Of a stretch of DNA of 64,000 nt, positions 17,195 to 63,436 are shown in pieces. Origin of the DNA: a virus; IMG/VR virus record IMGVR_UViG_3300019888_000001, positions 1 through 64,000 of that record; one strand, written 5' to 3'. Under the pieces are notes generated by a model, which was given only the letters and a program-made list of their open reading frames with translations, was not told where the DNA came from and ran no database searches. Position 1 is the first letter of the stretch; each line of letters starts with the position of its first letter. A program made the position numbers and the translations under genes.

Positions 17195-17371
17195 TCAGTG
17201 CTTCCAGGATCGCGCAACTTTGGCAAAATTGGCTCTCTTGCGCACTGCCGGGTCGGTCGAAGCCAGACCATGCATAATCTGGTCCATCGTAAGCTTCTTC
17301 CCTTTCTTGACCCCAAGATCACGATGAAGCCGGTCTTCGTGAGATTTCTTAATATGAATCCCGGATGCCAT
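17195..17371 (-). CDS. Small basic protein
   Basis: 58 residues (MASGIHIKKSHEDRLHRDL ... ARSWKH), rich in Lys, Arg and His, helical. It overlaps the stop of the upstream small membrane gene by one base (TAATG). No family recognised; the composition would suit nucleic-acid or capsid-interior binding. Confidence 0.6.
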   Translation of the reverse strand: MASGIHIKKSHEDRLHRDLGVKKGKKLTMDQIMHGLASTDPAVRKRANFAKVARSWKH

Positions 17372-17481
17372 TACTTCTTCTGAAACTTAGCTTTGAGATA
17401 GGCAACACCAGCGGCTATTTGGGTTGACCCTAAATACCCGGCAGCAACACCTATAATTAGACCTAAGATAAAACCAATCAT
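17371..17481 (-). CDS. Tiny single-pass membrane protein
   Basis: 36 residues: MIGFILGLIIGVAAGYLG forms one Gly-rich membrane helix, followed by a basic tail (YLKAKFQKK). It resembles the 45-residue protein at 30911-31048 (MIAFVIGLVLGGVAGFFIG). Its promoter at 17487-17515 has a -10 5 nt before the ATG. Confidence 0.6.
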   Translation of the reverse strand: MIGFILGLIIGVAAGYLGSTQIAAGVAYLKAKFQKK

Positions 17482-17486
17482 ACACT

Positions 17487-17515
17487 ACTCTATTACCTAG
17501 GAAGCGCCCCGTCAA
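17487..17515 (-). promoter_or_regulatory. Promoter inside the displaced scaffold tail
   Basis: Minus strand TTGACG, 17-bp spacer, TAGAGT, 5 nt before the ATG at 17481. The -35 lies in codons for KLDGALPR at the end of the HNH gene and the spacer covers its stop. The corresponding scaffold codons (KLEGVLPK) lack this -35, which suggests the HNH-linked copy is the original 3' end. Confidence 0.55.
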
Positions 17516-17873
17516 GTTTGGACTTCAGCATCTCAGCTGCCGCAGCCCTGGCGCAACCGCAGTTACAATTAAAGCACAAAACTCGCAGTTCGTCGGGAAA
17601 CTTATTTTTAACCAAATAAAAATACTGATCGCCGCCTCTAGTTCGTCTTTTTGCGCTTCCGCCACCATTTATGTGATCTAAAGTCAACCAAAGCATATTA
17701 GAAGTTCGACACCCGCATTCACAAGAACAACGAGGAGTATTGCCTCCATAATGACGGAAACAAGCAAGTTTGCGTAGTAAATAACTTTTTTTATTTGAAG
17801 CTTGCCTTTTGGCTTTTGTAAGTGGATTACGCCAGCGCAAAAGACCTTTTAAACGATAATAGTTTTTTGTCAT
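17493..17873 (-). CDS. HNH endonuclease fused to a scaffold-like C-terminal tail
   Basis: 126 residues. HNH module: CFRHYGGNTPRCSCECGC, LWLTLDHINGGGSAKRR, VLCFNCNCGCARA. Immediately after the last cysteines it ends AAAAEMLKSKLDGALPR, matching the end of the upstream scaffold protein, TAAEMLKAKLEGVLPK. It starts directly behind the scaffold stop (TAAATG). The simplest reading is insertion of the nuclease near the 3' end of the scaffold gene, with the original tail now read as part of the nuclease and a replacement tail on the scaffold. Confidence 0.85.
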   Translation of the reverse strand: MTKNYYRLKGLLRWRNPLTKAKRQASNKKSYLLRKLACFRHYGGNTPRCSCECGCRTSNMLWLTLDHINGGGSAKRRTRGGDQYFYLVKNKFPDELRVLCFNCNCGCARAAAAEMLKSKLDGALPR

Positions 17874-40312: not shown

Positions 40313-40665
40313 ACAAACCTGTCACATATAATGAGGATGCATTGCAGAATACAAACCCTAAAGATAAAATAGGAGAAACCAAACCGTCACTTGCGCTAGT
40401 GCCAACCAGCCTTCTCGTGCCACTTTCCGAAGTTATGAAACTTGGCGCAAAGAAATATGGCGCGTGGAACTGGCGTAATACCAATCCGAAAGCAATGGTT
40501 TATTACAATGCAATGCTTCGACATATACATGCTGCTCTAGATCGCGAGGATACTGATCCAGAGAGTAGGCAATCTCATTTAGCTCATGTAAGTGCATGCT
40601 GTTTAATCTTGCTAGATTCAGCAAAATGTGGTAATTTAATAGATGATCGACCGCCAAAAAATTAG
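40309..40665 (+). CDS. DUF5664-type dATP/dGTP diphosphohydrolase-like protein
   Basis: 118 residues from the GTG that overlaps the previous stop. TNPKDKIGETKPSLALVPTSLL, MKLGAKKYGAWNWRN, MLRHIHAALDREDTDPESRQSHLAHVSACC and LIDDRP are the ordered motifs of this MazG-like family, which hydrolyses dATP or dGTP and is linked to base-modified phage genomes. It ends LIDDRPPKN; a second DNA copy of LIDDRP plus stop follows the LAGLIDADG gene downstream (41143-41163), indicating that the 3' end was displaced by the nuclease. Confidence 0.8.
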   Translation: MNKPVTYNEDALQNTNPKDKIGETKPSLALVPTSLLVPLSEVMKLGAKKYGAWNWRNTNPKAMVYYNAMLRHIHAALDREDTDPESRQSHLAHVSACCLILLDSAKCGNLIDDRPPKN

Positions 40666-41149
40666 TCACTTTTCTCTTTCTTATATCGCAGGATTGTTTG
40701 ATGGAGAAGGATATTTAGGCATATCCCGAGATAAGAAAATTCATTCAAAACGAGGGTTACTGTTTAGAGTATACGGAGGATTAAGAATCAGAGAAAAATT
40801 CATTGTGAAAGCTTTTGCTAAACGATTCGGCGGGACTGTGTGCAAGCGAATAGCACAGAACCCAAACTGGGCTGATACATATGTATGGCAAATTTATGGG
40901 TGCGATCTCGAAAAATTTCTTAAAACTGTTGCGTCATATTTGATTCTCAAACAACCTCAAGCCCGAATTATCTTGCGGTGCAGACAGCTAACGAAAACCA
41001 ATACTCATACTAGAATAATGCCAAAGTGTAAATATATAGCTTACCAAAATCTAACCAAACAAATTAATAAGTTGAACTTCCGAGGAAAGAAAACCAACCA
41101 AAAAAAATCCGAAGGCTCCTTGAGCCGAAACAACACAAAACCCTTATAG
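40643..41149 (+). CDS. LAGLIDADG homing-type endonuclease
   Basis: 168 residues, starting inside the last codons of the DUF5664-type gene. LSYIAGLFDGEGYLGISRD is the LAGLIDADG helix; the following VYGGLRIREKFIVKAFAKRFGG and WQIYGCDLEKFL belong to the fold. The basic C-terminal tail is Lys/Asn-rich. It separates the DUF5664 gene from a remnant of that gene's original end. Confidence 0.88.
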   Translation: MIDRQKISHFSLSYIAGLFDGEGYLGISRDKKIHSKRGLLFRVYGGLRIREKFIVKAFAKRFGGTVCKRIAQNPNWADTYVWQIYGCDLEKFLKTVASYLILKQPQARIILRCRQLTKTNTHTRIMPKCKYIAYQNLTKQINKLNFRGKKTNQKKSEGSLSRNNTKPL

Positions 41150-41163
41150 ACGACAGACCGTGA
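41143..41163 (+). pseudogene. Displaced 3' end of the DUF5664-type gene
   Basis: CTT ATA GAC GAC AGA CCG TGA encodes LIDDRP-stop, identical to residues LIDDRP at the end of the DUF5664-type protein (TTA ATA GAT GAT CGA CCG), with five differences all synonymous. The TGA overlaps the GTG of the next gene, the same GTGA junction used elsewhere here, so this is probably the original end of the gene. Confidence 0.6.
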
Positions 41164-41360
41164 ATATGCGAACTGTGTATAAATACACAAAAATTTTTAG
41201 TGAGCTGTGGTGCGCAGAAGTGCCCGCCGAACTGTACCCTGATAAGGAACTTACTGCTGCATGGCTAAACATTAACAATGGAACCATGATGCGAGCTTCA
41301 GAGTTACACTGGCGTACTCCATATTGGAATCTGCCTACAAATACGACAGGACCAAGATGA
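41160..41360 (+). CDS. Small protein of the 'AWL' family
   Basis: 66 residues from GTG (or 64 from the ATG two codons later). YTKIFSELWCAEVPAELYPDKELTAAWLNINNG resembles the 39922-40140 protein. Its GTG overlaps the remnant stop of the DUF5664 gene, and its stop overlaps the next start as ATGA. Confidence 0.5.
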   Translation: MNMRTVYKYTKIFSELWCAEVPAELYPDKELTAAWLNINNGTMMRASELHWRTPYWNLPTNTTGPR

Positions 41361-41614
41361 CCAGAGAAACCATTTTTATAATACTGGCGATTTTTACAGG
41401 ACTCTGGACGTTTATCGGAACCCTAAGGTGGTATTGGCGGATAACGACACCAGGGGAGGGATTAGATAACTATAACTATAATAACCGGCAAATAAGGTAT
41501 CTGATGTTTCTGCACGGGCCCGTAGTTTGGTGTTATGACCTTCATTGCGCGTTATTCACCTGGCTTGGCCGCGAAACCAAATTCGAGAAAGCTTACCGGA
41601 AGATACGCGAATGA
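41357..41614 (+). CDS. Membrane protein, unknown
   Basis: 85 residues: an N-terminal membrane helix (IFIILAIFTGLWTFIGTL) and a second weaker one (YLMFLHGPVVWCYDLHCALF). Coupled by ATGA on both sides. Confidence 0.5.
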   Translation: MTRETIFIILAIFTGLWTFIGTLRWYWRITTPGEGLDNYNYNNRQIRYLMFLHGPVVWCYDLHCALFTWLGRETKFEKAYRKIRE

Positions 41615-41838
41615 AAGCCGTAATGTATGGTGAAGAATCGGTTTACTTGGGCGGCTATGAACGAGTTATGTATCGAACAGGAATTCCTGATGAATTGTAT
41701 CCTGATATTGAATGGATAGATCCAGATTATATATCTCATCAGCTGGCATACCGTCCCGTAAACGTTAAGCCGACCAAAAACCCGAAGGCTTGCCGCGCTC
41801 CTTGGAATGAGCTTTCGGACAGCATCTGCGATTTTTGA
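41611..41838 (+). CDS. Small protein, unknown
   Basis: 75 residues. RTGIPDELYPDIEWIDPDYI recalls the EVPAELYPDKEL stretch of the 41160 gene, so it may be a distant member of the same local family. No other motif. Confidence 0.45.
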   Translation: MKAVMYGEESVYLGGYERVMYRTGIPDELYPDIEWIDPDYISHQLAYRPVNVKPTKNPKACRAPWNELSDSICDF

Positions 41839-46101: not shown

Positions 46102-46398
46102 ATGGAGCGGCATTCAGTAACCTCGACAGGGGGGTCGTCTCCTTGTGAACTGGATCCGATGTATCAAAAGATCCTGCAGTCGTTGAGGTTAGCTACGTTT
46201 GCTGACCAAGAACAATTTCCTAACGCGTATTTGGATAAGCTCGCACGAAACCTTCGAACCGATTTTCAGCACGAATTAGACGCCTGGAAAGCGTTGCTGA
46301 GCGCCGATAATCAGGCCGGCGACACACCTGATCCTTATCCTGATCCTAATATTAAATACACCTTCCATGCTGATATTGGGCTCCTACCTAACGACTAA
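46102..46398 (+). CDS. Hypothetical protein
   Basis: 98 residues, helical middle part (YLDKLARNLRTDFQHELDAWKALLS) and a Pro/Asp-rich end. No family. Confidence 0.5.
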   Translation: MERHSVTSTGGSSPCELDPMYQKILQSLRLATFADQEQFPNAYLDKLARNLRTDFQHELDAWKALLSADNQAGDTPDPYPDPNIKYTFHADIGLLPND

Positions 46399-46399
46399 T

Positions 46400-47404
46400 A
46401 TGAACAAACTAATAACCATAATCCTAACATACCTGGCCATTTCAGTGCAAGCTTCACACGCACTCACAGTCCTCTGGCCTACAGGCGGCGGAGGTACCCA
46501 TGTTGTAACCCTAAACATAGATGGCAACGGGCCTATTATTACTAGTCCTGTTCCAGGCTCGATTTTAACCTCGTCGACGGTTAACTTTTACTGGAAACCG
46601 AAAACCGGTAGTACATTTCCAGCTTATTATGCCGCGGTCGGCGTCCCGTCTAACCTTACGAAATATTTTCAGCAGTTGTTTATTAAAGACCCGTTTACGG
46701 TAAGCGGCCTTCCTACTACTTGTGGGCAAACAATTGTCGTCACAGTCTGCGGTGGTGATCCGGAGTGTACCCAATACACGTATCATACAAAGGCTTGCCC
46801 GACGCCAACACCCACGCCAAAACCTACCCCAACTGCCACACCTACCCCAACTGCCACACCTACCCCAGCTCCGACAGCAACGCCAACTGCGACGCCCGCA
46901 CCTACCCCAGCTCCGACAGCAACGCCAACTGCGACGCCCGCACCTACCCCCGCGACGAACTGCACGTTCACTCAAGGCTATTGGTCTACGCACGGCCCGG
47001 TCGACTGTAATCCTTCGGACGGCACTGATTTGTGGCCAGTGAAGTCTCTCACATTTGGCACAGTAACTTACAGTGAGTCGCAGTTGTGTGCGATTATGAA
47101 TACTCCAGTTATGGGTAATGGATTGATTGATCTAGCTCACCAACTGATTGCTGCCGAGTTAAATATCGCGAACGGTGCAGACCCCTCCGTGATTAGCGCG
47201 ACGATCAGTTTGGCAAACACGATGATCGGAAATCTTGTTATCGGTAGCGCTTCGTTACCCACGAGTCAGACATCGCCGCTGGTGGTCGCGCTTGATGCGT
47301 GGAACACCGGCACGGCTGGGCCTGGCCACTGCCCCACAATCGCCACCACCGAGCCGCTGATGTTCGACACCTGCCCTGTGGTCACACCTACACCAACACC
47401 GTGA
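46400..47404 (+). CDS. Secreted Pro/Thr-repeat protein with GYW domain
   Basis: 334 residues: signal peptide (MNKLITIILTYLAISVQASHA), an Ig-like beta domain with Cys pairs, a ~55-residue Pro/Thr/Ala linker, then NCTFTQGYWSTHGP. The 'CTFTQGYWxxH' start is the pattern of a domain seen in bacterial exported and surface proteins. The linker DNA contains a perfect 42-bp tandem duplication (46859-46900 and 46901-46942). A phage-encoded secreted adhesin or cell-surface modifier is plausible; it may also have been acquired from a host. Confidence 0.65.
   Translation: MNKLITIILTYLAISVQASHALTVLWPTGGGGTHVVTLNIDGNGPIITSPVPGSILTSSTVNFYWKPKTGSTFPAYYAAVGVPSNLTKYFQQLFIKDPFTVSGLPTTCGQTIVVTVCGGDPECTQYTYHTKACPTPTPTPKPTPTATPTPTATPTPAPTATPTATPAPTPAPTATPTATPAPTPATNCTFTQGYWSTHGPVDCNPSDGTDLWPVKSLTFGTVTYSESQLCAIMNTPVMGNGLIDLAHQLIAAELNIANGADPSVISATISLANTMIGNLVIGSASLPTSQTSPLVVALDAWNTGTAGPGHCPTIATTEPLMFDTCPVVTPTPTP
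46859..46942 (+). repeat. Perfect 42-bp tandem repeat (two copies)
   Basis: Codes for Pro/Thr/Ala linker residues in the secreted protein. The copies are identical, so the duplication is recent and the linker length is probably variable. Confidence 0.8.
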
Positions 47405-47465
47405 ATGAAACCCTGCAACAAGACAACCTGCCTCCCGAACCACCGGTCGCTTATTTCGTGAAACA

Positions 47466-48671: not shown

Positions 48672-48850
48672 TGTATAAAAAGAAAAAGTATTCGTTGCAT
48701 CTGAAGAAAGCGCATGAAGTGAAAAGTGCGGCGGACGCTCATCTTGCTCTACAGAAACTCTGGGAGCATAATGCTTTGAGCACGCGGCATTCTCGTGTTA
48801 CTATTCAACAGCAGGATGGACAAGTTCGGTTTAAGTCGCCACGCTCATAA
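48671..48850 (+). CDS. Small basic protein overlapping a tRNA gene
   Basis: 59 residues starting in a TAATG overlap with the previous gene. The first ~46 residues are a helical Lys/His-rich protein; the last 13 (QQDGQVRFKSPRS) are simply the translated first half of the tRNA-Met gene. The original 3' end was probably replaced when the tRNA arrived. Confidence 0.5.
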   Translation: MYKKKKYSLHLKKAHEVKSAADAHLALQKLWEHNALSTRHSRVTIQQQDGQVRFKSPRS

Positions 48851-48890
48851 CGTGGAGAATTCGTGGGTTCAAATCCCACTCCTGCAACCA
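48810..48890 (+). tRNA. tRNA-Met (anticodon CAT)
   Basis: Acceptor pairs GCAGGA with TCCTGC (first position A-A unpaired), a short D stem GAC/GTC, anticodon stem CCACG/CGTGG with loop CTCATAA (anticodon CAT), a 7-nt variable region, T arm GTGGG-TTCAAAT-CCCAC, discriminator A and an encoded CCA. CAT may read Met or, if modified, Ile. No other complete tRNA was found. Confidence 0.85.
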
Positions 48891-50914: not shown

Positions 50915-51106
50915 ATGGCCGATCAGATTTCTCAACTTCGAGCAAAAGTCTCGCGAACGCTTGAAGCTAAGGTGATGGCCCGCGGTCGTTTGGTCCGAGC
51001 GGATCAAGAGTGGGCCCAAGCGGTTCGGGCGCTACAACGAGCGGAGCAGGCTGAAGCGCTGGCTCATGCTGAACGGACTCGGGTTTTGGTTCGGTCTGTG
51101 CTTTAA
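50915..51106 (+). CDS. Small coiled-coil protein
   Basis: 63 residues, fully helical, with Ala/Arg/Glu heptads. The last 140 nt run antisense to the tail of an HNH gene. It could partly be a shadow of that gene, but the upstream TTGACA and clean heptads favour a real gene. Confidence 0.4.
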   Translation: MADQISQLRAKVSRTLEAKVMARGRLVRADQEWAQAVRALQRAEQAEALAHAERTRVLVRSVL

Positions 51107-51539
51107 AAAATTTTTCATGTTTGAGGCCAGTTGAAATATAGTATTCTTTATTTTCCGCTCGTTTTATCCAATTACAGTTTGAGCATAGACATTGAAAGTT
51201 GGCAGGGTTATCGCGTACGTATCTATAGTATGCGTGGCGGCTTGGAAAGGTGGCGCGGTGTTTTCTACCTCCTCCATTTATGTGATCAATTTGAAGTGCA
51301 CGAGTATCTAAAAAGCCGCATCGGGCACATTTATTGCCGAGAATGTTTAGAATTAGCACGCGCAAATTTTTGCGATAACGAGCGTCGTTTAGTCGGTGTT
51401 TTTCTGGATGCGCTTGGTTATAACGTTTATCGCAAGCTTTTTTCTTTGCTGTTTTGTTATATTTTTTGGTTCGGCGGATTTTTGAAGCGCGCCCGTTAGG
51501 AGTGCGGCTCCATATTTGATACTGGTTTCGGGTTTGCAT
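50967..51539 (-). CDS. HNH homing-type endonuclease
   Basis: 190 residues. Lys/Arg-rich arm, NILGNKCARCGFLDTRALQIDHINGGGRKHRA and FQCLCSNCNWIKRAE: the zinc-type HNH module of the 14088/16743/17493 subgroup. The final ~45 residues are a Pro/Glu-rich tail that is antisense to the small gene at 50915, so the tail may be read-through rather than a functional domain. Confidence 0.85.
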   Translation of the reverse strand: MQTRNQYQIWSRTPNGRASKIRRTKKYNKTAKKKACDKRYNQAHPEKHRLNDARYRKNLRVLILNILGNKCARCGFLDTRALQIDHINGGGRKHRATFPSRHAYYRYVRDNPANFQCLCSNCNWIKRAENKEYYISTGLKHEKFFKAQTEPKPESVQHEPALQPAPLVVAPEPLGPTLDPLGPNDRGPSP

Positions 51540-51764
51540 TTAAGATAAATTATAGTATAAAAGAAAGTTTTCAAGATATTTTGTCATCGTAGTGGCGTTT
51601 GTTTTTTCTGTGGCAATTGCTTGTCCGGTATGCACAAAATTTTTGTGACATCAAAAATTAATTTTTTCTTCGAGTTAAAAACCTTGTAACCTTCACGTAC
51701 ATAAGGGCTTACACCCCACTAGGGGAGGCCATTGCACCAGGGGAACCCTGTCATTCTGAATGAA
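51540..51764. other. Gene-free AT-rich segment with palindromes
   Basis: No supported gene. It holds near-palindromes CACAAAATTTTTGTG and AAAAATTAATTTTT around 51633-51665, CCCC-ACTA-GGGG near 51715 and CAGGG-GAA-CCCTG near 51739. It is the left flank of the repeat cluster. Confidence 0.5.
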
Positions 51765-51810
51765 TGAAACAAAATTACATTGAAACAAAATTACATTGAA
51801 ACAAAATCAT
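51765..51810 (+). repeat. 16-bp tandem repeats
   Basis: TGAAACAAAATTACAT occurs twice exactly in tandem and a third time truncated by two bases. AT-rich iteron-like units. Confidence 0.8.
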
Positions 51811-51812
51811 AG

Positions 51813-51860
51813 TGTTACCGTGTTACCGTGTTACCGTGTTACCGTGTTACCGTGTTACCT
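51813..51860 (+). repeat. 8-bp tandem repeat array
   Basis: TGTTACCG repeated five times, with a sixth unit ending in T instead of G. It follows the 16-bp units by two bases. Iteron-like; the copy number may vary. Confidence 0.85.
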
Positions 51861-51892
51861 TGCGGCACCGGGCGTAGCGTGGAAGGTTTTCG

Positions 51893-51980
51893 CAATTATG
51901 AGTCGCAGTGTTGCAATTTGTCCTGGATTCCATTGCACCGTTGTCTTGTTGCAGGGTTTCAGGGTTGCGACTCATAATTG
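51893..51980. repeat. 15-bp perfect inverted repeat
   Basis: CAATTATGAGTCGCA and its exact complement are separated by 58 nt. Together with the tandem repeats just upstream it makes a candidate replication origin or RNA leader structure. Confidence 0.7.
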
Positions 51981-51999
51981 AGATTGCTGAGGACTACCG

Positions 52000-52860
52000 T
52001 TTATCCAACATCGAGGATAAAAAATAGTTACCTAAGAGAAATAGTGTTGATGAAGTGTTGGCACGAGCTTTGCTAATGCCCTTGTTGCCTCGGATGAAAT
52101 CCGGGCGACCAAAGCAGCGAAGCTACCTTAGGCAGTTTGATCGCAGTGCAGTAGCAGGTGCGATTGCCTATCGGAGTCTAAGTCGCAAGAGTAGCTGCCC
52201 ACAGTCGCGCGAGTAGTAACTGAGGTCGCGGAGCAAAATCGTGGTGGCTTTGTCCAACACGCGGGCAAGCGGTGAAACGTTTGCGAGCGCAATCCTGCGC
52301 TTCTCTATTGTAGAGCAAGAGTCGAAGATACAATGCCGATTAACGGGCGCGCTTGCGTGCTTTACGGCTGAACATGACCTTGTAAAACTGCGATAAGAAT
52401 CTACATGCGGCACGAAATGAGAGCGAGACCGCAAAAAGAACGTGCGAGGAAACTCAATATCTCGGCAAAGCTGGTAATGTCAGCAAACGCGAAAGCGGTC
52501 AAGTGACCGCTAAATCGTAGGGAAATTGGCGGCTAGTTGGACTGCAAACTATTAGAAAAGCCAGTCGAAACGAAACGTGGCGCACCTAAGGGCAATAAAA
52601 GGATTCGGCGCTAATTGCGCGGAGTCGAATAAGCTGTGAAGCTGCACAGTAACATCAAAACAAAGCGGCCACCCGGTAGGGATGGTGGATTTCTATTAGG
52701 CGTGACGCCTATTAACTAAGCATCTCGCGCGGCCGCGATGGTCTGCGCTGAACTAGAGAAATCTGTTAGCGGGCGCACAAGGCGCGCCCGTTTGCACTCT
52801 CAATCTTACACTTGCGCGCATGTGTGTGCGTTGCGAGGCAAAAACAAGTAAGGTTGAGAA
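52000..52860 (+). ncRNA. Candidate giant structured non-coding RNA
   Basis: About 860 nt without a credible gene on either strand, dense in local stems: TTTATCC/GGATAAA at the left edge; a GCC-CGGAT-GAA-ATCCG-GGC hairpin at 52087; AGCGGTC-AAGT-GACCGCT at 52494; CTGTG/CACAG at 52634; AGGCG-TGA-CGCCT at 52698; CGGGCGC/GCGCCCG at 52770; and a 12-bp stem (one G-U) at 52798/52848 closing the right edge. CCTAAG at ~52031 and CTTAGG at ~52127 suggest long-range pairing. A GNRA-like GCGAAAGC is present. Size and style recall the phage RNAs GOLLD and ROOL; strand is assumed from the flanking genes. Confidence 0.5.
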
Positions 52861-52869
52861 AATCAAACT

Positions 52870-53319
52870 ATGGATAACCAATTAACAGTATTCGTGGAGC
52901 AAACGAACGCCCAGATTGCTATTTCCAAAGCTATCGGACTGCCTATCGAGGTAATCCGAAGCAATGGTTCTAAAGCAAACTTCAAGACGTTCGCAGACTC
53001 GCGCGGAGTAGTTATCGACAAAACGGATTCGGATTTTGACAAAGATGCCGCAAGGGCACTTCGCGCAGAATTTAATTCGTTAGTCGCGGAATATCACGCG
53101 AAAATTAAACCAATCGCAGCGGGAATGCTCGCAGCGGACGGTTTCCGCGTGGCTTCATTGCAGCCTAAATACAACGCTAAATCGGGCGAGTATCAAGGCT
53201 GCAATATCGCAGTTCGACGTGAATTGAAGGGCGCGGCCCTTACACTTCGCGGCGAAAACGCGTTGCTCCGAAAGCAGCTTGCTGAACTGCAAGCCAAGCT
53301 ATCAGCGTTACCAGCCTAA
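52870..53319 (+). CDS. Hypothetical protein downstream of the RNA region
   Basis: 149 residues, alpha/beta N-terminal 110 and a C-terminal leucine-zipper-like helix (LRGENALLRKQLAELQAKLSAL). It begins ten bases after the putative RNA. No family recognised; dimerisation through the zipper is likely. Confidence 0.55.
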   Translation: MDNQLTVFVEQTNAQIAISKAIGLPIEVIRSNGSKANFKTFADSRGVVIDKTDSDFDKDAARALRAEFNSLVAEYHAKIKPIAAGMLAADGFRVASLQPKYNAKSGEYQGCNIAVRRELKGAALTLRGENALLRKQLAELQAKLSALPA

Positions 53320-53351
53320 CCAAAGCAGGCAATAGCCTACTTTGCGAAAAA

Positions 53352-53381
53352 CTGCGCTCAATCTAGGTAGGTTGAGCGCAG
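53352..53381 (+). repeat. 10-bp hairpin between genes
   Basis: CTGCGCTCAA / TTGAGCGCAG with a 10-nt loop, 15 nt before the ATG at 53396. A second hairpin (AGGC-AATA-GCCT, extended by AAAG/CTTT) lies just before it at about 53313-53334. Confidence 0.65.
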
Positions 53382-53395
53382 ACTTCGCAGATTTT

Positions 53396-53581
53396 ATGAG
53401 ACATCACACGAAAAATGTCTCTCCGCGAAAAGAAAAACGGCATTTGCTTAATCAAATCGCAATTTGTCGAGCGTTAGCGGCGAGGCATCAAATGACACGA
53501 TCAGAACGCTCTTGGATGAACGAGCGCCAACGTATCGTTTTTCAGATTAAGATTTTGAAAGGGCAACTAGCCCGAAGTTAA
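53396..53581 (+). CDS. Small basic protein
   Basis: 61 residues, MRHHTKNVSPRKEKRHLL, helical and strongly basic; plausible nucleic-acid binder. The earlier in-frame TTG would place the strong hairpin inside the gene, so the ATG is preferred. Confidence 0.5.
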   Translation: MRHHTKNVSPRKEKRHLLNQIAICRALAARHQMTRSERSWMNERQRIVFQIKILKGQLARS

Positions 53582-53852
53582 TAGTCAGCGCATAGCCTGC
53601 GCTCGTTATGAACGGCGCGTAATACATATCCCGCCTGTGGTATGTTCAAGCGCGATTAACAGGCACAATTTTCATCGCCGAAACGGTTGGGTTAAAGTCC
53701 CACTCTACAGGCTTGGAAGATATCGAACACGACGCGAGAAATCTGTATTCGTGTGCTCCGGCAGCCCGATGATTATTTACACTACAACTGCGCTCGATCT
53801 GAGCGAATAGCCCGATAAAAACGCGCAGTCGGGCACAATTTACGTTACATTT
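53582..53852 (+). other. Structured gene-free spacer, tRNA-like element
   Basis: No gene. AGCGCA-TAGCC-TGCGCT hairpin at 53587; GCCTGTG at ~53630 can pair with TACAGGC at ~53706 below a T-arm-like TGGG-TTAAAGT-CCCA, though no D arm or 7-nt anticodon loop is present; GCCCGA/TCGGGC and CTGCGC/GCGCAG pairs follow. The motif GGCACAATTT occurs twice. It looks like RNA structure rather than a true tRNA. Confidence 0.4.
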
Positions 53853-54176
53853 ATGCAAAAAAATAAGAGCGTTTACGTGATTCTGCTCAATTCAGCAGTC
53901 GCGGTGCACGCAAAACTGCGTAAACAGAATCCAAACCGCAATCCACAGAAACCTTGCGTTTATGTAGGAATTACGGGGCTTTCTGTCGAAGAAAGATTTG
54001 AGAATCATAAACGCGGATATAAATCGTCGCGTTACGCTACGAAATATGCCGTCAGGCTGATGCCTGAATTATACGAGCATCTTAATCCATTGACTTACGA
54101 CGAGGCGATGTGCGCAGAAATAACGTTAGCGGAAACCCTTCGTAATGAAGGATATACAGTGGCTGGTGGTCATTAA
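53853..54176 (+). CDS. GIY-YIG (URI domain) nuclease
   Basis: 107 residues. KSVYVILLN and CVYVGITG are the two strands corresponding to GIY and YIG, VEERFENHKRGYKSS supplies the catalytic Arg helix, and EITLAETLRNEGYTVAGGH the metal-binding Glu. A minimal stand-alone domain, of the type found in homing enzymes and repair nucleases. It is the fourteenth nuclease of mobile-type family in the window. Confidence 0.8.
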   Translation: MQKNKSVYVILLNSAVAVHAKLRKQNPNRNPQKPCVYVGITGLSVEERFENHKRGYKSSRYATKYAVRLMPELYEHLNPLTYDEAMCAEITLAETLRNEGYTVAGGH

Positions 54177-54177
54177 T

Positions 54178-54303
54178 ATGCAAATAGAAATCAGATCAAT
54201 AAATGGACGTGTTATCAGAATCGAAGTAGCCAAAGATACTATTTCATCTGATGATTTGAAGAAACTGATGGATTGGAACAAACAAACTGAAAATCAAATA
54301 TGA
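54178..54303 (+). CDS. Small hypothetical protein
   Basis: 41 residues, MQIEIRSINGRVIRIEVAKD, beta hairpin then helix. ATGA overlap with the next gene. Confidence 0.5.
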   Translation: MQIEIRSINGRVIRIEVAKDTISSDDLKKLMDWNKQTENQI

Positions 54304-54458
54304 CTGAAACAGAGAAACAAAACAGCGTGAAACAGTGGGAACGGTTCGGGAACGAACCGGATTCCAAACGTCAAAAACGACTTGACATAATCGAAGCGTA
54401 TAAAAACCGCTTCAAAACCGCAAACAGTCAACGCGGGAACTCCAAAAAGGCTAAATAA
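54300..54458 (+). CDS. Small basic protein
   Basis: 52 residues, MTETEKQNSVKQWERFGNEP, helical and Lys/Arg-rich. It is followed directly by the next ATG. Confidence 0.5.
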   Translation: MTETEKQNSVKQWERFGNEPDSKRQKRLDIIEAYKNRFKTANSQRGNSKKAK

Positions 54459-54653
54459 ATGACAACTTACAACGCTACCTGCCAGTTACGTTACAAAACC
54501 TTACGCTGGTCAACTCACACTGTTTACCGCCTTCGTGCGAATACACCAAGCGAAGCATTAAAAATTGCCGATTTGAACGTTCGGCGAGATTTCGATAACC
54601 CAGATTTCCAGTTCAAAAATCTAACCGTAAAACCCGTAACATGTAACAAATAA
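54459..54653 (+). CDS. Small hypothetical protein
   Basis: 64 residues, MTTYNATCQLRYKTLRW; a beta-alpha pattern (TPSEALKIADLNVRRDF). No family. The 70-nt gap after it holds a GCAGCAG/CTGCTGC hairpin near 54692-54715. Confidence 0.5.
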   Translation: MTTYNATCQLRYKTLRWSTHTVYRLRANTPSEALKIADLNVRRDFDNPDFQFKNLTVKPVTCNK

Positions 54654-54723
54654 CCCTGATGCAGTGTTGCCAAACAGATTATTCAATGCAGCAGTGTGAC
54701 GGCTCTGCTGCCTTGAGTAATTT

Positions 54724-54861
54724 ATGAAAATAACATTAGAAGAATGTATCATGGTGGGCAATGCCGGGTGGGGAATACTCTTCCATTCATGGTTTTGCAT
54801 GGTTGTTGCAGGAGTGATGGCGTTGCAGTTATCATACTACTCATTCAGGAAAAGGTTATGA
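54724..54861 (+). CDS. Small membrane protein
   Basis: 45 residues, MKITLEECIMVGNAGWGI then a membrane helix (WFCMVVAGVMALQLSYY). Confidence 0.45.
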   Translation: MKITLEECIMVGNAGWGILFHSWFCMVVAGVMALQLSYYSFRKRL

Positions 54862-54865
54862 CTTT

Positions 54866-54955
54866 ATGAGCAAAACTTCCATCTGGCTTATAGACATCGG
54901 CATAGCTATATTTATCTGGCTTTTCGGATTCGCTATCGGCCATTACTTAATATGA
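54866..54955 (+). CDS. Tiny membrane protein
   Basis: 29 residues, almost entirely one membrane helix (WLIDIGIAIFIWLFGFAIG). Its stop overlaps the first ATG of the ATGAAATT array. Confidence 0.4.
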   Translation: MSKTSIWLIDIGIAIFIWLFGFAIGHYLI

Positions 54956-55015
54956 AATTATGAAATTATGAAATTATGAAATTATGAAATTATGAAATTA
55001 TGAAATTATGAAATT
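54952..55015 (+). repeat. Eight tandem ATGAAATT units (minicistron array)
   Basis: Eight exact copies of ATGAAATT. Each reads ATG AAA TTA TGA, a three-codon frame (MKL) whose TGA overlaps the next unit's ATG. The array begins in the stop of the upstream gene and ends in the ATG of the next gene (ATGAAAAAACTA), so every junction is an ATGA overlap. Confidence 0.9.
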
Positions 55016-55162
55016 ATGAAAAAACTAATACTGATAGCATTGCTAACCGCGCTTTCGGGCGTGATTGGATATCAAATCGGCATCGCAACCGCACCTACAT
55101 ATGACACAGTGCAGCTTGTGTTGCCGCCAACCCTACAACCACCATCACTCGAAAAATTATGA
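55016..55162 (+). CDS. Small exported or membrane-anchored protein
   Basis: 48 residues, MKKLILIALLTALSGVIG (signal or anchor) and a Pro/Thr-rich 25-residue tail. It begins at the last ATG of the minicistron array and ends in an ATGA overlap. Confidence 0.5.
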   Translation: MKKLILIALLTALSGVIGYQIGIATAPTYDTVQLVLPPTLQPPSLEKL

Positions 55163-55389
55163 TTAAAACAGTTAAACACGCGGAATCGTATTTTCCACGT
55201 TTCATGTCGAAATGTTGTAGTGCGGAAACGCATACCGGGATTTGCATGGAGTGTGGAAATGCGGCAGTAATGCCGTTTTATTTTGTAGCTACTAAACCGA
55301 TCCCTGATGCAATCGCGATTTGTCGCGAAAAACAATTACGCGCGCAACTGCCGGTCGGCGCGTCAATCGTTGGGTTAATCTCTTTATGA
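55159..55389 (+). CDS. Cys-rich small protein
   Basis: 76 residues. CCSAETHTGICMECGN suggests a zinc knuckle. Same shape as many small phage proteins of unknown role. ATGA overlaps on both sides. Confidence 0.5.
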   Translation: MIKTVKHAESYFPRFMSKCCSAETHTGICMECGNAAVMPFYFVATKPIPDAIAICREKQLRAQLPVGASIVGLISL

Positions 55390-55523
55390 ACACCAAAATC
55401 GAAATCAAACTGAAAAACGGTAACACAGTTTATCTTGAAACAAACCGCGCGCCGATACCATCCCTTTGGCTCGGCGAACTAATGCTACAACTTACGAAAC
55501 ATGAAAAAGCAAAACAAAACTAA
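55386..55523 (+). CDS. Small hypothetical protein
   Basis: 45 residues, MNTKIEIKLKNGNTVYLETN, beta-rich start and helical end. Overlaps the next gene by 23 nt. Confidence 0.45.
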   Translation: MNTKIEIKLKNGNTVYLETNRAPIPSLWLGELMLQLTKHEKAKQN

Positions 55524-55668
55524 AATAGTAATGGCTGTAGCATGGCAACATGGCTGCAGGGTTACGCGGATAACAGATAAAAACCGGCAAACTATCAAGT
55601 TTCCGTCTTCAAAACAAGCTGCTGGTTACATCGGCCGGCTTAAAAACGTGATAATTAAACTCGGATGA
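55501..55668 (+). CDS. Small basic protein
   Basis: 55 residues, MKKQNKTKIVMAVAWQHG, with KQAAGYIGRLKNVIIKLG at the end. ATGA overlap with the next gene supports it. Confidence 0.5.
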   Translation: MKKQNKTKIVMAVAWQHGCRVTRITDKNRQTIKFPSSKQAAGYIGRLKNVIIKLG

Positions 55669-55940
55669 AACAAAACGATTGCGAATTGGTTGACGGTAAA
55701 ACCGGTGAAACCGTGTTTCGAGGAAACTTTCCAGACTGCTGGAATCATCCTCAACGTAATGTTGATAGTAAAACTGGTGATTTAGGAGTTTTTTTGTTAT
55801 CCCGTGAAGCTGCCAAGAAATATCGCGCAGCGTTGCAGGAAAAAGCGAAATTCCAAAAACAGCTAAAACAACATATAGAAAAAGAAATAGCGCGGGTCAC
55901 GGCGAAGCCGCGCAAACGTAAGCAAAATGAAACCTATTAA
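55665..55940 (+). CDS. Hypothetical protein
   Basis: 91 residues: a compact N-terminal 45 (ELVDGKTGETVFRGNFPDCW) and a long basic helix. No family. Confidence 0.5.
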   Translation: MKQNDCELVDGKTGETVFRGNFPDCWNHPQRNVDSKTGDLGVFLLSREAAKKYRAALQEKAKFQKQLKQHIEKEIARVTAKPRKRKQNETY

Positions 55941-56106
55941 AATCAGATTCGAGGACAAACCAGATTTAAGTTATGATCTTAGCGGCCAACCTGTTGAGAT
56001 TGAACGAGTTATCGAAGCTGCGCTTGACGGTGAGAATTTGATGAATGTCATTTTCTCGGTTAAAAACGACGGATTAACGTTGACAAAAACCACCAATTTA
56101 TGCTAG
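55927..56106 (+). CDS. Small hypothetical protein
   Basis: 59 residues, MKPIKIRFEDKPDLSYDLSG. Its last codons contain the -35 of the promoter at 56080-56109. Confidence 0.5.
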   Translation: MKPIKIRFEDKPDLSYDLSGQPVEIERVIEAALDGENLMNVIFSVKNDGLTLTKTTNLC

Positions 56107-56109
56107 AAG
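56080..56109 (+). promoter_or_regulatory. Promoter, leaderless type
   Basis: TTGACA, 18-bp spacer, TAGAAG, 6 nt before the ATG at 56116. Part of the spacer (CAATTTATG) is the same as in the promoter at 30875-30904. Confidence 0.5.
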
Positions 56110-56115
56110 ATTAAT

Positions 56116-56265
56116 ATGAACAAAGAAGAAGAAGTGCAAAAACTACTGGCCGAAGGGATGTCGATTCAAGACATTGTGGATTATTACGAAAATACCCACG
56201 ATTATGAAGGAATCGCCGCCGTTTCGGATTTGAACAACGACAACCACTCCGCAAGGATGGATTAA
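56116..56265 (+). CDS. Small acidic helical protein
   Basis: 49 residues, MNKEEEVQKLLAEGMSIQDI; the MSIQDIVDYYEN segment could be a short helix-turn-helix. TAATG overlap with the next gene. Confidence 0.5.
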   Translation: MNKEEEVQKLLAEGMSIQDIVDYYENTHDYEGIAAVSDLNNDNHSARMD

Positions 56266-56444
56266 TGACAATCGAATTTCGACGTAAACGAGGTAAACGC
56301 TTCCAAAAAGGAGTGCTTTATCTCCATATAGGTAAAATCTCAACCGGCGAATTGAAAACCTTATGCGACTCCGTGTTTAGTAAGAAAAGCCAAGCTCCTG
56401 AACACTGTATGCCTTACCAAAAAGGTGAAGCATCTGATTATTAA
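56265..56444 (+). CDS. Small basic protein
   Basis: 59 residues, MTIEFRRKRGKRFQKGVLYL. Begins in a TAATG overlap. The ~180 nt that follow hold no gene I can support, only a CTCGG/CCGAG hairpin near 56491. Confidence 0.5.
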   Translation: MTIEFRRKRGKRFQKGVLYLHIGKISTGELKTLCDSVFSKKSQAPEHCMPYQKGEASDY

Positions 56445-56623
56445 CAGTTGAAGTATGAAAACTAATAGGAACATGCTCCCTATAAATCTCTCGGACTTAC
56501 CGAGGCCATAAGATATTTTTGCACAGGGACTCGCGCTTGAACATACCACAGGCGCCGGAGAACGAAACTCCATCCTATTTTAGAAGCCCGAAACCAACAA
56601 CTGAAACAACGAGGACTTCGACC

Positions 56624-56770
56624 ATGAAGTCTTATCATGCATTACAACTCGGGCTGTTGTTTGCTATCTTCTCCAACCAACTGCCATACGCATTTGCGAA
56701 AGTAATCGGTGGTCTGTTAAGCCTAACTTATTGTGTGACCGCATGCATTTTAACATTCAAAGAAGAATGA
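56624..56770 (+). CDS. Small membrane protein
   Basis: 48 residues from MKSYHALQLGLLFAIFSNQL; two hydrophobic helices. A longer frame starting at 56519 lacks support. ATGA overlap with the next gene. Confidence 0.45.
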   Translation: MKSYHALQLGLLFAIFSNQLPYAFAKVIGGLLSLTYCVTACILTFKEE

Positions 56771-56982
56771 AAAGTAAATACTACGACAATTATCCCGAAG
56801 TCAAACGTCACATTTTGAATAAACCTGGACATACCGGAACTACAGGACACGATGGTTTCCGACTGCGGAAGAATGGCGAGGGAAGATGGGTGTTTGTTGA
56901 AGGGATTAACCGACCAATTCCTATCGTTAATCGCCGCGATTCGGCTTGCATGAATAAATGTTTTAAGAAACGAGGATTATGA
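56767..56982 (+). CDS. Hypothetical protein
   Basis: 71 residues, basic, with GHTGTTGHDGFRLRKNGEGRW. No family. Confidence 0.45.
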   Translation: MKSKYYDNYPEVKRHILNKPGHTGTTGHDGFRLRKNGEGRWVFVEGINRPIPIVNRRDSACMNKCFKKRGL

Positions 56983-57000
56983 GACATAAAAAGACAAATT

Positions 57001-57120
57001 ATGAGACACCAAACACCAAGTAAACGTGCCTGGCGGAGAATGACGAAAAGCATGTCGGTAGCAGGATTGGCGGTAATGCTGATCCAGTTATGGCATACAG
57101 CGTATCCATCCAAACCGTAG
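57001..57120 (+). CDS. Small basic membrane-type protein
   Basis: 39 residues, MRHQTPSKRAWRRMTKSMSV then a short hydrophobic helix. An imperfect copy of its first bases (ATTATGAGACA) lies 21 nt upstream. Confidence 0.4.
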   Translation: MRHQTPSKRAWRRMTKSMSVAGLAVMLIQLWHTAYPSKP

Positions 57121-57136
57121 ACTAATCCAAGCACGG

Positions 57137-57463
57137 ATGAATATTATGAACACAAAACCTGAAAAATACGCACTATTCTTTTGGTATTGCCCGGAAATAC
57201 CTCAAGCATCGTTGTTGGAGCAGATTATAGCTCGTCAAGGAAAAGATGCGGATATGGACAAGCCAATGGCTCGACCCGAATCGCCACCGAAAAAGCTAGT
57301 CTTTATCAAAATGGTAGATTCGGCTGTTGAGTTAAGCTCTCTTATTTCGCGATCACCTACGTTAGATTACGTAATCATGCAAGGCAGCTTGCATGCAGTG
57401 AAGGCGTCTACGTCGGTGTTCGTTGATGGTAAAAACCTGATGGAAGATCAAATAAACGGATAA
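57137..57463 (+). CDS. Hypothetical protein
   Basis: 108 residues, alpha/beta (YALFFWYCPEIPQASLLEQIIA, TLDYVIMQGSLHAVKAS). No recognised family. Confidence 0.5.
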   Translation: MNIMNTKPEKYALFFWYCPEIPQASLLEQIIARQGKDADMDKPMARPESPPKKLVFIKMVDSAVELSSLISRSPTLDYVIMQGSLHAVKASTSVFVDGKNLMEDQING

Positions 57464-57497
57464 TATGGAAGACCCAATAAAACACCGCGATAAATTT

Positions 57498-57887
57498 ATG
57501 AAGCACATTCTTCTAACAGGAGCCGCGCTTATGGTAGCCGGCTGCGCGGATATCCCAACTCATTCCACAAAAGCGCGCGTTACGTTTTACTCACGAGGCG
57601 AAGATAAATACGGTTCGCGTATCGCCACTGGCGGACGTGCACGAGAAGGTCGCACAGTTGCAGCCTCGACTTTAGTTCCGTTTGGAACAGGAATCCAAAT
57701 ACCCGGCTTGGCCGGAATCGTTGGTAACGGAAGATTTGTCTGCGAAGATCGTGGTTCAGCAGTGAATCGGGAACGAGCAAGCAGAGGACAGGCGCCGGTG
57801 ATTGATGTATATTGCGCGTCGCCTGCTAAACGACGACGGCTAGCTCGATCACTTCCTGAATATATGGAGATTAAATATGATAACTAA
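57498..57887 (+). CDS. Lipoprotein with 3D/RlpA-like double-psi domain
   Basis: 129 residues from MKHILLTGAALMVAGCADIP, a lipobox with Cys16. The rest matches the 3D domain: ARVTFYSRGEDKYGS, AASTLVPFGTGIQIPGL, GRFVCEDRGSAV and APVIDVYCAS, with the acidic residues expected in such peptidoglycan-acting beta-barrels (MltA/RlpA-type). It would be anchored in a membrane facing the periplasm and could trim or bind peptidoglycan. It lies outside the main lysis cassette, so a role in superinfection or late lysis is open. Confidence 0.65.
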   Translation: MKHILLTGAALMVAGCADIPTHSTKARVTFYSRGEDKYGSRIATGGRAREGRTVAASTLVPFGTGIQIPGLAGIVGNGRFVCEDRGSAVNRERASRGQAPVIDVYCASPAKRRRLARSLPEYMEIKYDN

Positions 57888-60725: not shown

Positions 60726-61730
60726 ATGATAGAAACCATAACACTGAAACCGTCCCAGTTAATGGACGCGTTAGCACACTGCGATAAGGCTAAGTTGCGA
60801 CCCTTCATTGTGTCGCCGCCTGGCTTAGGCAAGTCCCAGATCGTGGCCCAATACGCCGCGAAGCGCCCGTTCGTGGATACGAGATTGTCTTACGCGAGTC
60901 CAATCGACTTGCGGGGCGTCCCGTATCGCGATGGCGAGAAATGCCAGTTCGCATCACCGGCGGAATATCCGTCGAATGAAGGCACAGTTTGGTTGTTAGA
61001 CGAGTATTCCTGTGCCTCGAAACAAGTCCGGAACGCCGCATTGCAGTTGTTGCTGGAAAACAAAATTGGACAATACACTTGTCCTAAAGACACGTTTATC
61101 GTGCTAGCGGGCAACGGTATGTCCGATCGCGCCAACGTAGAGCGAGCGGGTTCTGCGGAAGTCAATCGCATTGTGTTCGTAAGCCTTCGACCCGATCTTA
61201 CTGATTGGGTAGAGTGGGCGCTGCCGGCGGGGATTGATCCTCGTATTGTAGCGTTTCTTAACTTCCGACCAGGGTGTTTGCACGACTTCGATCCATCAAC
61301 TTTTGACGGCTCGAAAGGGTTTGCCTCGCCAAGATCGTGGGAGTTCACCAACCGCCTTCTGAAAGGCGGATCCACGGGGGCCATAAGACTGGCGCTGATG
61401 ACAGGGTTGGTAGGGCAAGGTGCCGCGTTGGAGTTTGAAGCTTTCTTGAAAGTATTCGACAAGCTTCCAGACTTCGATTATGTGCTGGCCAATCCTACGA
61501 AAGCAATCGTGCCGAAGAACGACCCTGCGGTAATGTATGCCATTACTGCCGGTCTTGCTTTGCACGTCACGGAAAAGACAATCAAAAATGCGCTGGTGTA
61601 TCTCGCTAGAATCCCGAAAGAATTCGAGGTTTTCGCAGTTAGAATGGCGCTGAAATCCAAGAGCAAGTTAGCGTATGCTCAAGAAATTATCACATGGGTA
61701 AGCAAAAACAAAGACGTTCTAGCAGGGTAA
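60726..61730 (+). CDS. MoxR-like AAA+ ATPase
   Basis: 334 residues. Walker A IVSPPGLGKSQIVAQ (30-38 region), TRLSYASPIDLRGVPYRDG, Walker B TVWLLDEYSCASKQVRNAALQLL, sensor 1 IVLAGNGMSDRANVERAGS and an arginine-rich VNRIVFVSLRPDL. Same layout as bacterial MoxR proteins, which act as chaperones for partners carrying a VWA domain. A VWA protein with a zincin motif is encoded close by (62306-63436), so the two probably form one remodelling system. Confidence 0.85.
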   Translation: MIETITLKPSQLMDALAHCDKAKLRPFIVSPPGLGKSQIVAQYAAKRPFVDTRLSYASPIDLRGVPYRDGEKCQFASPAEYPSNEGTVWLLDEYSCASKQVRNAALQLLLENKIGQYTCPKDTFIVLAGNGMSDRANVERAGSAEVNRIVFVSLRPDLTDWVEWALPAGIDPRIVAFLNFRPGCLHDFDPSTFDGSKGFASPRSWEFTNRLLKGGSTGAIRLALMTGLVGQGAALEFEAFLKVFDKLPDFDYVLANPTKAIVPKNDPAVMYAITAGLALHVTEKTIKNALVYLARIPKEFEVFAVRMALKSKSKLAYAQEIITWVSKNKDVLAG

Positions 61731-62181: not shown

Positions 62182-62309
62182 AACAAAACAAACTACCAAG
62201 ACCCGAAGTGGCTATCGACCATGATTCGAAAAGAGCTTTATTGTGCAGCAAAAAAGCAACAGAAACAGCTCGATACGACATCAGAAGGGCGTTAAGGTTA
62301 AACGAATGA
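62178..62309 (+). CDS. Small basic protein
   Basis: 43 residues, MKQNKLPRPEVAIDHDSKRA; ATGA overlaps with both neighbours support translation. Confidence 0.5.
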   Translation: MKQNKLPRPEVAIDHDSKRALLCSKKATETARYDIRRALRLNE

Positions 62310-63436
62310 ACGAACAAGCAAAACGAGTTGAAAAGCAAATGGTGCAATTAGTTCTGACTCAGAGCTTTTTTGCGACACTGCTTTTGCGCATGAAAATCGA
62401 GGAGAATAATGCTCCGTGGAATCCAACAGCCTGCACCGATGGGGTGCGTATCTATTGGAACTCAGGCTTCATTAAAGGCCTCACGGATGGAGAAATACGA
62501 GCGTTGTTGGTGCATGAAGTCATGCATCCTGCACTGGGTCATTTATGGCGTATCGGAAGTCGAGACTTGCAGAAAAGTAATATCGCGGCGGATCATGCGG
62601 TGAACTTATTCATCCAGTCGATTAACGAAGAAGCCCAAAAACAAGGGCATCAACCGCCGTTGCCGTTGCCAAAGAACGGCTGCTGCGATAAGAAATACGT
62701 TGGAATGGGGATGGAAGAAATCTACTCCCTGCTCCCTGAGTCCAAAAACAAAAAATATTCCGGGTTCGGAGAGTTCACCAAACCGGCTGCAGGGAAAGAC
62801 CAAAGTAACACAGAAGCGGATTGGAAAATAGCGGTAGTCCAAGCGGCGAACGCCGCTAAACTCTGCGGTAACCAAAGCGCCGCTCTTGATAGGCTTGTCA
62901 ACGATACTACCAAGCCTCAAGTTCCATGGCAGCGTCTGCTGGAGAACTTTGTATCATTGTCATCAGATGACGATTATGATTGGCTGAAGTTTGATCGCAG
63001 ATACGTCGACGAAGGCTGGTACTTCCCGACCGTGTATTCTGAACGGGTAGGTGAACTGGCTGTTATAATCGACACCAGTGGCAGTATCGGAGAGGATACC
63101 TTGTCGCAATTCCGGTCGGAAGTGCAAGAACTGATGCACACAATGAAGCCTTCAAAACTCGTAGTGTTCTACGCAGATACCGAAATTTGCGCCACGCAAG
63201 AGTTTGAGAGCGGGGATAAAATTGAGTTCAAAGCTAAAGGCGGTGGTGGAACGGACTTCGCTAAACCCCTTAAAGAAGTGAAGAAACGCGGGATCGTGCC
63301 TCAATGCTTAATCTACCTAACTGATTTGTATGGAACGTTCCCAAAAGAAGCGCCTCCGTTTCCGTTGATCTGGGTTGTAACGCCGGGTGGTGACAAACGT
63401 GAAGTTCCATTTGGAGAGATTGCTAGGATGGTATGA
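62306..63436 (+). CDS. VWA protein with HExxH motif (DUF2201-like), MoxR partner
   Basis: 376 residues. HEVMHPALGH at 70-79 supplies H70, E71, H74 and H79, a zincin-type site. From ~250 a von Willebrand A domain follows: LAVIIDTSGSIGED with the MIDAS DTSGS at 256-260, a later GGGGTDFAKPL and LIYLTDLYG. Metallopeptidase-plus-VWA proteins paired with MoxR ATPases are known from bacteria as uncharacterised remodelling or defence-like systems. In a phage it may act on host complexes or virion maturation. Confidence 0.8.
   Translation: MNEQAKRVEKQMVQLVLTQSFFATLLLRMKIEENNAPWNPTACTDGVRIYWNSGFIKGLTDGEIRALLVHEVMHPALGHLWRIGSRDLQKSNIAADHAVNLFIQSINEEAQKQGHQPPLPLPKNGCCDKKYVGMGMEEIYSLLPESKNKKYSGFGEFTKPAAGKDQSNTEADWKIAVVQAANAAKLCGNQSAALDRLVNDTTKPQVPWQRLLENFVSLSSDDDYDWLKFDRRYVDEGWYFPTVYSERVGELAVIIDTSGSIGEDTLSQFRSEVQELMHTMKPSKLVVFYADTEICATQEFESGDKIEFKAKGGGGTDFAKPLKEVKKRGIVPQCLIYLTDLYGTFPKEAPPFPLIWVVTPGGDKREVPFGEIARMV

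Follow-up and report, generated by a model that had tools for sequence, protein, structure and literature searches.

GOLLD RNA forms a multimeric RNA cage, and its expression goes up at lysis. In structured coding mRNAs, as in the genome-scale ordered RNA structure of viruses, excess folding energy runs through the coding sequence. The term genome-scale ordered RNA structure occurs in PMC6563262. GOLLD RNAs (RF02032) are phage-borne, are often longer than 800 nt, have an elaborate fold, and are often located near tRNA genes (PMC12286853). ROOL RNA (RF03087) is a large phage RNA whose function is not known and which is often found near tRNA islands (PMC12286853). In phage K, long noncoding RNAs occupy intergenic gaps near tRNA genes, and their transcription was shown by RNA-seq (PMC9241854).

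The locus considered here belongs to a window of 64,000 nt, positions 1 to 64,000 of the IMG/VR virus record IMGVR_UViG_3300019888_000001, which is 82,110 bp long. The window carries phage genes for a terminase, a DNA polymerase, a primase-helicase, a ligase, and a conserved capsid-type protein, and an rIIA-like gene is present in the same record beyond the window. From its position and conservation, the product of 15,339-16,253 is the putative capsid protein. A sequence-only reading of the window had proposed that a hairpin-rich region at 52,000-52,860 may encode a giant structured RNA. The features of the locus are as follows.

51,636-52,869, no strand assigned: longest gene-poor stretch, 1,234 nt (codon-likelihood gene calling and ORF list)
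51,750-57,500, plus strand: structured island, the best-scoring contiguous segment of the window (maximum-segment search, permutation p 0.001)
51,765-51,859, no strand assigned: two tandem arrays, TGAAACAAAATTACAT in 2.7 copies and GTGTTACC in 6 copies (Tandem Repeats Finder)
51,890-51,983, no strand assigned: inverted repeat with arms of 18 nt, 94% complementary and 58 nt apart (repeat search)
51,986-52,869, plus strand: structured untranslated head, proposed to be a long leader RNA (fold z scores and same-place heads in relatives)
52,798-52,859, plus strand: 12-bp terminal stem-loop that closes the head and ends 10 nt before the ATG (pair probability)
52,870-53,319, plus strand: gene for a small basic protein of 149 aa, with strongly structured coding RNA (synonymous-codon shuffles)
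53,343-53,389, plus strand: long hairpin (13 bp plus 6 bp) directly upstream of the next small ORF, whose ATG is at 53,397 (MFE and centroid fold)

The head resembles GOLLD in being large and phage-borne, with an elaborate fold and a tRNA gene nearby. It differs in that it has no covariance-model match, no conserved 3' domain was found, the structure goes on into coding sequence, and there is one tRNA gene, 3.1 kb off. It shares with ROOL the character of a large phage RNA, but without a model match and without any shared sequence or fold being identified. As in phage K, the candidate is a long phage noncoding RNA in an intergenic gap near a tRNA gene; whereas RNA-seq was available there, the head is known from structure and position alone, and its layout includes a structured ORF. 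Excess folding energy through coding sequence is also what characterizes the genome-scale ordered RNA structure of viruses, but here it is local, forming an island that begins near a long untranslated head in a family of dsDNA phages. A literature search, with most subscription papers outside its reach, returned no earlier description of an island of this kind from a dsDNA phage.

Comparison with known RNA families

A permissive cmscan search of 51,100-53,900 with all Rfam models gave no match at an E value of 10 or below, and the heads of the relatives described below yielded tRNAs and sub-threshold noise only. Membership in GOLLD or ROOL, which the sequence-only reading had raised, found no match by covariance-model search, either at the locus or in nine genomes of the virus family. 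The targeted GOLLD search (RF02032) was negative in all nine, with control genomes giving sub-threshold matches only, and so was the targeted ROOL search (RF03087), which had no positive control and whose sensitivity to divergent members is unproven. Filing the locus as GOLLD or ROOL is not supported, though the head may still function in the manner of a large phage RNA. No Rfam model of a group I or group II intron matched the locus at an E value of 10 or below, and the same program did detect the two group I introns of L098 described below. Nor was there an Rfam match at the locus for HEARO or OMEGA RNA, which is expected beside an IscB/IsrB-type nuclease gene; the neighbor here is a small HNH-endonuclease-like gene on the opposite strand. 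The tRNA-Met gene that had been placed about 3 kb upstream was found at 48,810-48,890, 3.1 kb upstream; it is the single tRNA gene near the head, and the relative G001 has five scattered tRNAs.

A predicted plus-strand fold in the longest gene-poor stretch

The sequence-only reading correctly took this to be the longest gene-free stretch of the window. Codon-likelihood gene calling places it at 51,636-52,869, with leftward genes to its left and rightward genes to its right. The accompanying statement that genes otherwise overlap was overstated, as the window has a dozen further gaps of at least 300 nt. Plus-strand ORFs in the gap reach at most 53 aa, except for one 61-aa repeat reading, and the ORF list includes a basic 33-aa ORF in the head at 52,405-52,506. 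Protein homology, which had been named as evidence against an RNA, did not appear: none of the ORFs tested in 51,636-52,869 had a Pfam match. The head is bracketed by nuclease-like genes, with the HNH-like gene (50,967-51,539) on the left and a GIY-YIG-like small protein at 53,853-54,176 inside the island, the latter scoring 19.1 bits in Pfam against a cut-off of 22.6 bits. Elsewhere in the window, Pfam identified a DUF2201 metallopeptidase/VWA protein at 62,243-63,436; for this protein and a 334-aa protein at 60,726-61,730, relatives with matching gene order occur on contigs of another phage group.

The plus strand from about 52,000 to 52,869 has a minimum free energy (MFE) of -310 to -316 kcal/mol, the value from 51,986 to the ATG at 52,870 being -316. 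In three runs against dinucleotide-preserving shuffles, the head had z scores of -4.3, -4.4, and -3.4; the last of these runs used 60 shuffles, none of which was as low as the real head. Fifteen control segments of the same length from the window ranged from -2.6 to +2.1. The signal comes from the two outer thirds of the head; its middle third (52,280-52,580) is shuffle-like, with a z score of -0.8. The minus strand of the head likewise folds well (z -2.8 to -4.2), and the fold of the head alone therefore cannot separate RNA from DNA. The 12-bp closing stem that had been described just before the next gene is present, with arms at 52,798-52,809 and 52,848-52,859 and a mean pair probability of 0.98. 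The GNRA-like loops described with it are scarce: of four strict tetraloops closed by 4-bp stems, just one is GNRA.

No convincing promoter or terminator was found, match counts being equal to the shuffled expectation, and no intrinsic-terminator-like site was found at the end of the 0.86-kb block. Repeated promoter hairpins were considered and rejected: enriched 9-mers were absent except for one tandem repeat and one A/T-rich word, and the hairpins shared no repeated words. Also to the left of the head, 51,940-51,961 has a 22-nt exact inverted match to 47,406-47,427 (minus strand), which is the 3' end of a gene at 46,367-47,404 that encodes 345 aa and contains tandem repeats at 46,802-46,957. 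A perfect tandem repeat, TATGAAAT in 8.9 copies, is located at 54,951-55,021 in a gap of the island.

Structure beyond the head

When the protein was held fixed and synonymous codons were permuted, the 149-aa ORF at 52,870-53,319 gave a sense-strand z score of -6.8 and an antisense z score of -4.3. Control genes of the window gave sense z scores of -0.5 to +0.6 in the same kind of shuffle, and the ligase control gene gave an antisense z score of -3.5. The lowest z score near the head falls in the ORF behind the gap and not in the gap. The proposal of a giant structured RNA at 52,000-52,860 stands in part: the plus-strand fold beats shuffles and the block is structured, but structure continues past the supposed boundary at 52,860 into a coding sequence that is more structured still. 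Because structure runs through the next genes, the 0.86-kb block appears to head a structured transcript rather than to stand alone as a giant RNA. The hairpin at 53,343-53,389 was obtained from a fold of 51,985-53,400. A fold search with the predicted structure of the 149-aa protein, a model of low confidence, gave no significant match.

The island at 51,750-57,500, which is full of small, poorly conserved ORFs, was obtained by a maximum-segment search in 250-nt windows in which the segment limits were not preset. Its segment score of 19.9 makes it the weakest of the four phages compared here. Stretches of SPO1, T4, and T7 had no 2-kb bin below -1.7. Three unrelated phages gave shorter segments scoring 11 to 21, against 19.9 for the window and 40 to 92 for its relatives, a comparison in which the scores are roughly comparable at most, as the unrelated-phage scan was run with a smaller number of shuffles and a higher floor for the standard deviation. 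One of the unrelated-phage peaks coincides with two group I introns identified by Rfam models (L098:16832-17068 and 17283-17544, minus strand), which indicates that the scan detects real structured RNA.

The same layout in related phages

A search with a two-sequence alignment of the capsid-type protein identified about 46 IMG/VR contigs that belong with the window to one virus family. Five of these form a closer group with the window, and the locus is reached in three, G001, G016, and G017. All three have a gene-poor head of 536 to 1,094 nt followed by a basic ORF of 142 to 181 aa, and these ORFs are homologous to one another (BLASTP, E values of 4e-13 and 4e-7). The 149-aa ORF of the window is tied to them by a weak profile match (E value of 4e-4, probability of 34%) and has the same predicted topology, a long helix, a beta hairpin, and a helix, at moderate to low confidence. 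The proteins behind the heads are basic, with net charges of +5 to +13. The plus strands of the relatives' heads gave z scores of -7.9 (G017), -5.5 (G001), and -2.0 (G016) against shuffles, and the ORFs behind them gave synonymous-shuffle z scores of -6.9 (G017), -4.4 (G016), and -2.1 (G001). A small ORF within the G017 head is plausible, with its best reading from L205:19,242, and given this ORF the head layout may be partly coding. G017 has another gene-poor stretch, about 1.1 kb long, just beyond the first head and the ORF behind it (L206:536-1615, equivalent to 40,536-41,615), with a plus-strand z score of -6.4.

All three of the relatives' heads have a stem of 10 to 13 bp that ends 10 to 24 nt before the ATG. 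A stem of at least 10 bp located 4 to 30 nt before the ATG occurs in 4 of 4 heads versus 13 of 332 genes outside the islands (3.9%), with the 10-bp and 30-nt limits having been chosen after inspection of the four cases. With the stem first seen in the window, its presence in three of three relatives has a chance of about 6e-5 (0.039 cubed) and is unlikely to be accidental. The letters of the terminal stem are wholly different between phages, and pairing is thus kept without sequence. Pairwise alignment against shuffles detected no nucleotide similarity among the four heads; since the neighboring protein is itself so divergent, missing nucleotide similarity does not exclude a conserved fold. 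In the comparison across homologs, none of the four same-place regions could be aligned, and the terminal stem alone could be matched, by position.

No nucleotide homologs of the locus of any note were found in INPHARED phages, and there were none among 67 ligase loci or in 35 family records. Direct searches with the ORF behind the head and with the primase returned no relatives, and terminase and capsid queries found no prophages in GTDB genomes. An alignment of all four ORFs is too divergent for use as a search query, and a two-member alignment returned only both known phages.

Structured islands across the virus family

Maximum-segment searches located structured segments at 66.5-81.5 kb in G016, 37-53 kb in G017, and 37-63 kb in G001 (permutation p 0.0005 each). 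These long islands start at or near the heads and run rightward. Comparable blocks are present in the more distant G024, G033, and G040, and a weaker one is present in G020. In all four phages the island genes are structured beyond synonymous-codon shuffles (Mann-Whitney p 0.013, 0.0014, 9.5e-5, and 2.8e-5), and perfect hairpins are 2.3 to 6 times denser inside the islands. When the four phages were pooled, the sense strand in the islands had a z score of -1.82 versus -1.19 for the antisense strand (p 5e-11), whereas outside the islands there was no strand difference. This pooled preference favors RNA over DNA; taken by itself, the window gave no significant preference (p 0.58). Structure is raised about equally upstream of, within, and downstream of genes. 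Intercistronic hairpins resembling RNase III sites were rejected as the sole carriers of the signal, gene bodies being as structured as junctions. Outside the island of G016, the coding sequence of a helicase-like gene at 42,105 (L201:2105) has a synonymous-shuffle z score of -7.3.

Interpretation of the structured head

The gene-free stretch of 0.9 kb is probably a real folded RNA, and the presence of a large plus-strand structured RNA is supported both by the shuffle comparisons of the fold and by the recurrence of the layout in three relatives. Our preferred reading, which we put forward tentatively, is that the stretch forms the structured untranslated 5' leader of a transcript that runs rightward, with RNA-level folding in the genes downstream as well. 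Its main rival, which we consider unlikely, is a discrete large noncoding RNA, about 0.85 kb long and similar in kind to GOLLD or ROOL but of an unknown class, whose end would be the terminal stem near 52,860 and which would act alone or with the adjacent small basic protein, the structure in neighboring genes being a separate matter. The longest gene-free stretch with a plus-strand fold that beats shuffles, a stem closing the block in all four phages, adjacent proteins that are all basic, and a place in a phage genome 3 kb from a tRNA gene would all suit such an RNA. However, structure continues past the stem and is stronger in the following ORF, the block does not end in an intrinsic-terminator-like site, and the middle third of the head is unstructured; Rfam has no match, and the head varies from 536 to 1,094 nt among the phages with no sequence conserved.

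Two further explanations are less likely than either the leader or the discrete RNA. It is improbable that the stretch is a control region acting at the DNA level, comprising divergent promoters and perhaps an origin of replication with iteron-like arrays. In that case the palindromes would be there for proteins to bind or for the strands to open, and the RNA fold would be incidental. Such a region would fit the position between leftward and rightward genes, the arrays and inverted repeat at 51,765-51,983, the well-folding minus strand of the head, and the window's own lack of a significant strand preference, but it does not fit a sense strand favored inside the pooled islands and not outside them, a structure excess spanning kilobases of coding sequence, or hairpins without shared repeated words. 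Since both tandem arrays of 51,765-51,859 lie to the left of the structured part, a DNA-level role may hold for 51.7-52.0 kb and not explain the head. More improbable still is that the stretch holds unrecognized or decaying small protein genes, short and fast-evolving, whose fold is a side effect of local composition. The plausible ORF in the same-place head of G017, the basic 33-aa ORF in the window, and an island full of small, poorly conserved ORFs are consistent with this possibility; against it, the tested ORFs have no Pfam match, the codon-likelihood caller calls nothing in the gap, composition is controlled by the dinucleotide shuffles, and coding genes in other parts of these genomes show no such structure.

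A structured leader heading a rightward operon, with mRNA folded throughout, is to us the most economical account, one that may well be correct and may equally need revision. It rests on thermodynamic and positional evidence throughout, namely, the structure statistics, the pooled sense preference, the shared locus layout with its stem, and coding structure beyond what the protein demands. Under this account the transcript would begin between the genes near 51.7-52.0 kb and, if made as one unit, would pass through the 0.9-kb head, then the gene for the 149-aa small basic protein, and then the following small genes. The long stem before the start codon may separate the leader from the ribosome landing site, with insulation of the start codon as a possible role of the structure, and could also be a processing or protection point. 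The likeliest benefit would be the protection of an early or middle phage mRNA, a timing suggested by genome position only, from host or defense ribonucleases, together with control of its translation. Selection would then act on pairing and not on particular letters, so that the sequence drifts and the layout stays.

A broader proposal, which we regard as rather doubtful, is that a dsDNA phage family keeps a contiguous gene block RNA-folded, from near an untranslated head of 0.5 to 1.1 kb through the coding sequences, by selection on pairing and not on sequence, with a long structured operon transcript serving as a shield or scaffold during infection. Related phages offer four same-place loci for comparison. 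If the proposal is true, sequence- or model-based RNA searches would be blind to such RNAs, as the sequence itself would evolve beyond recognition while the folding stays. Some dsDNA phages would then invest several kilobases of a gene region in RNA folding, including the synonymous choices in their protein genes, which would suggest either that ribonucleases exert strong pressure or that some function in infection is carried out at the RNA level.
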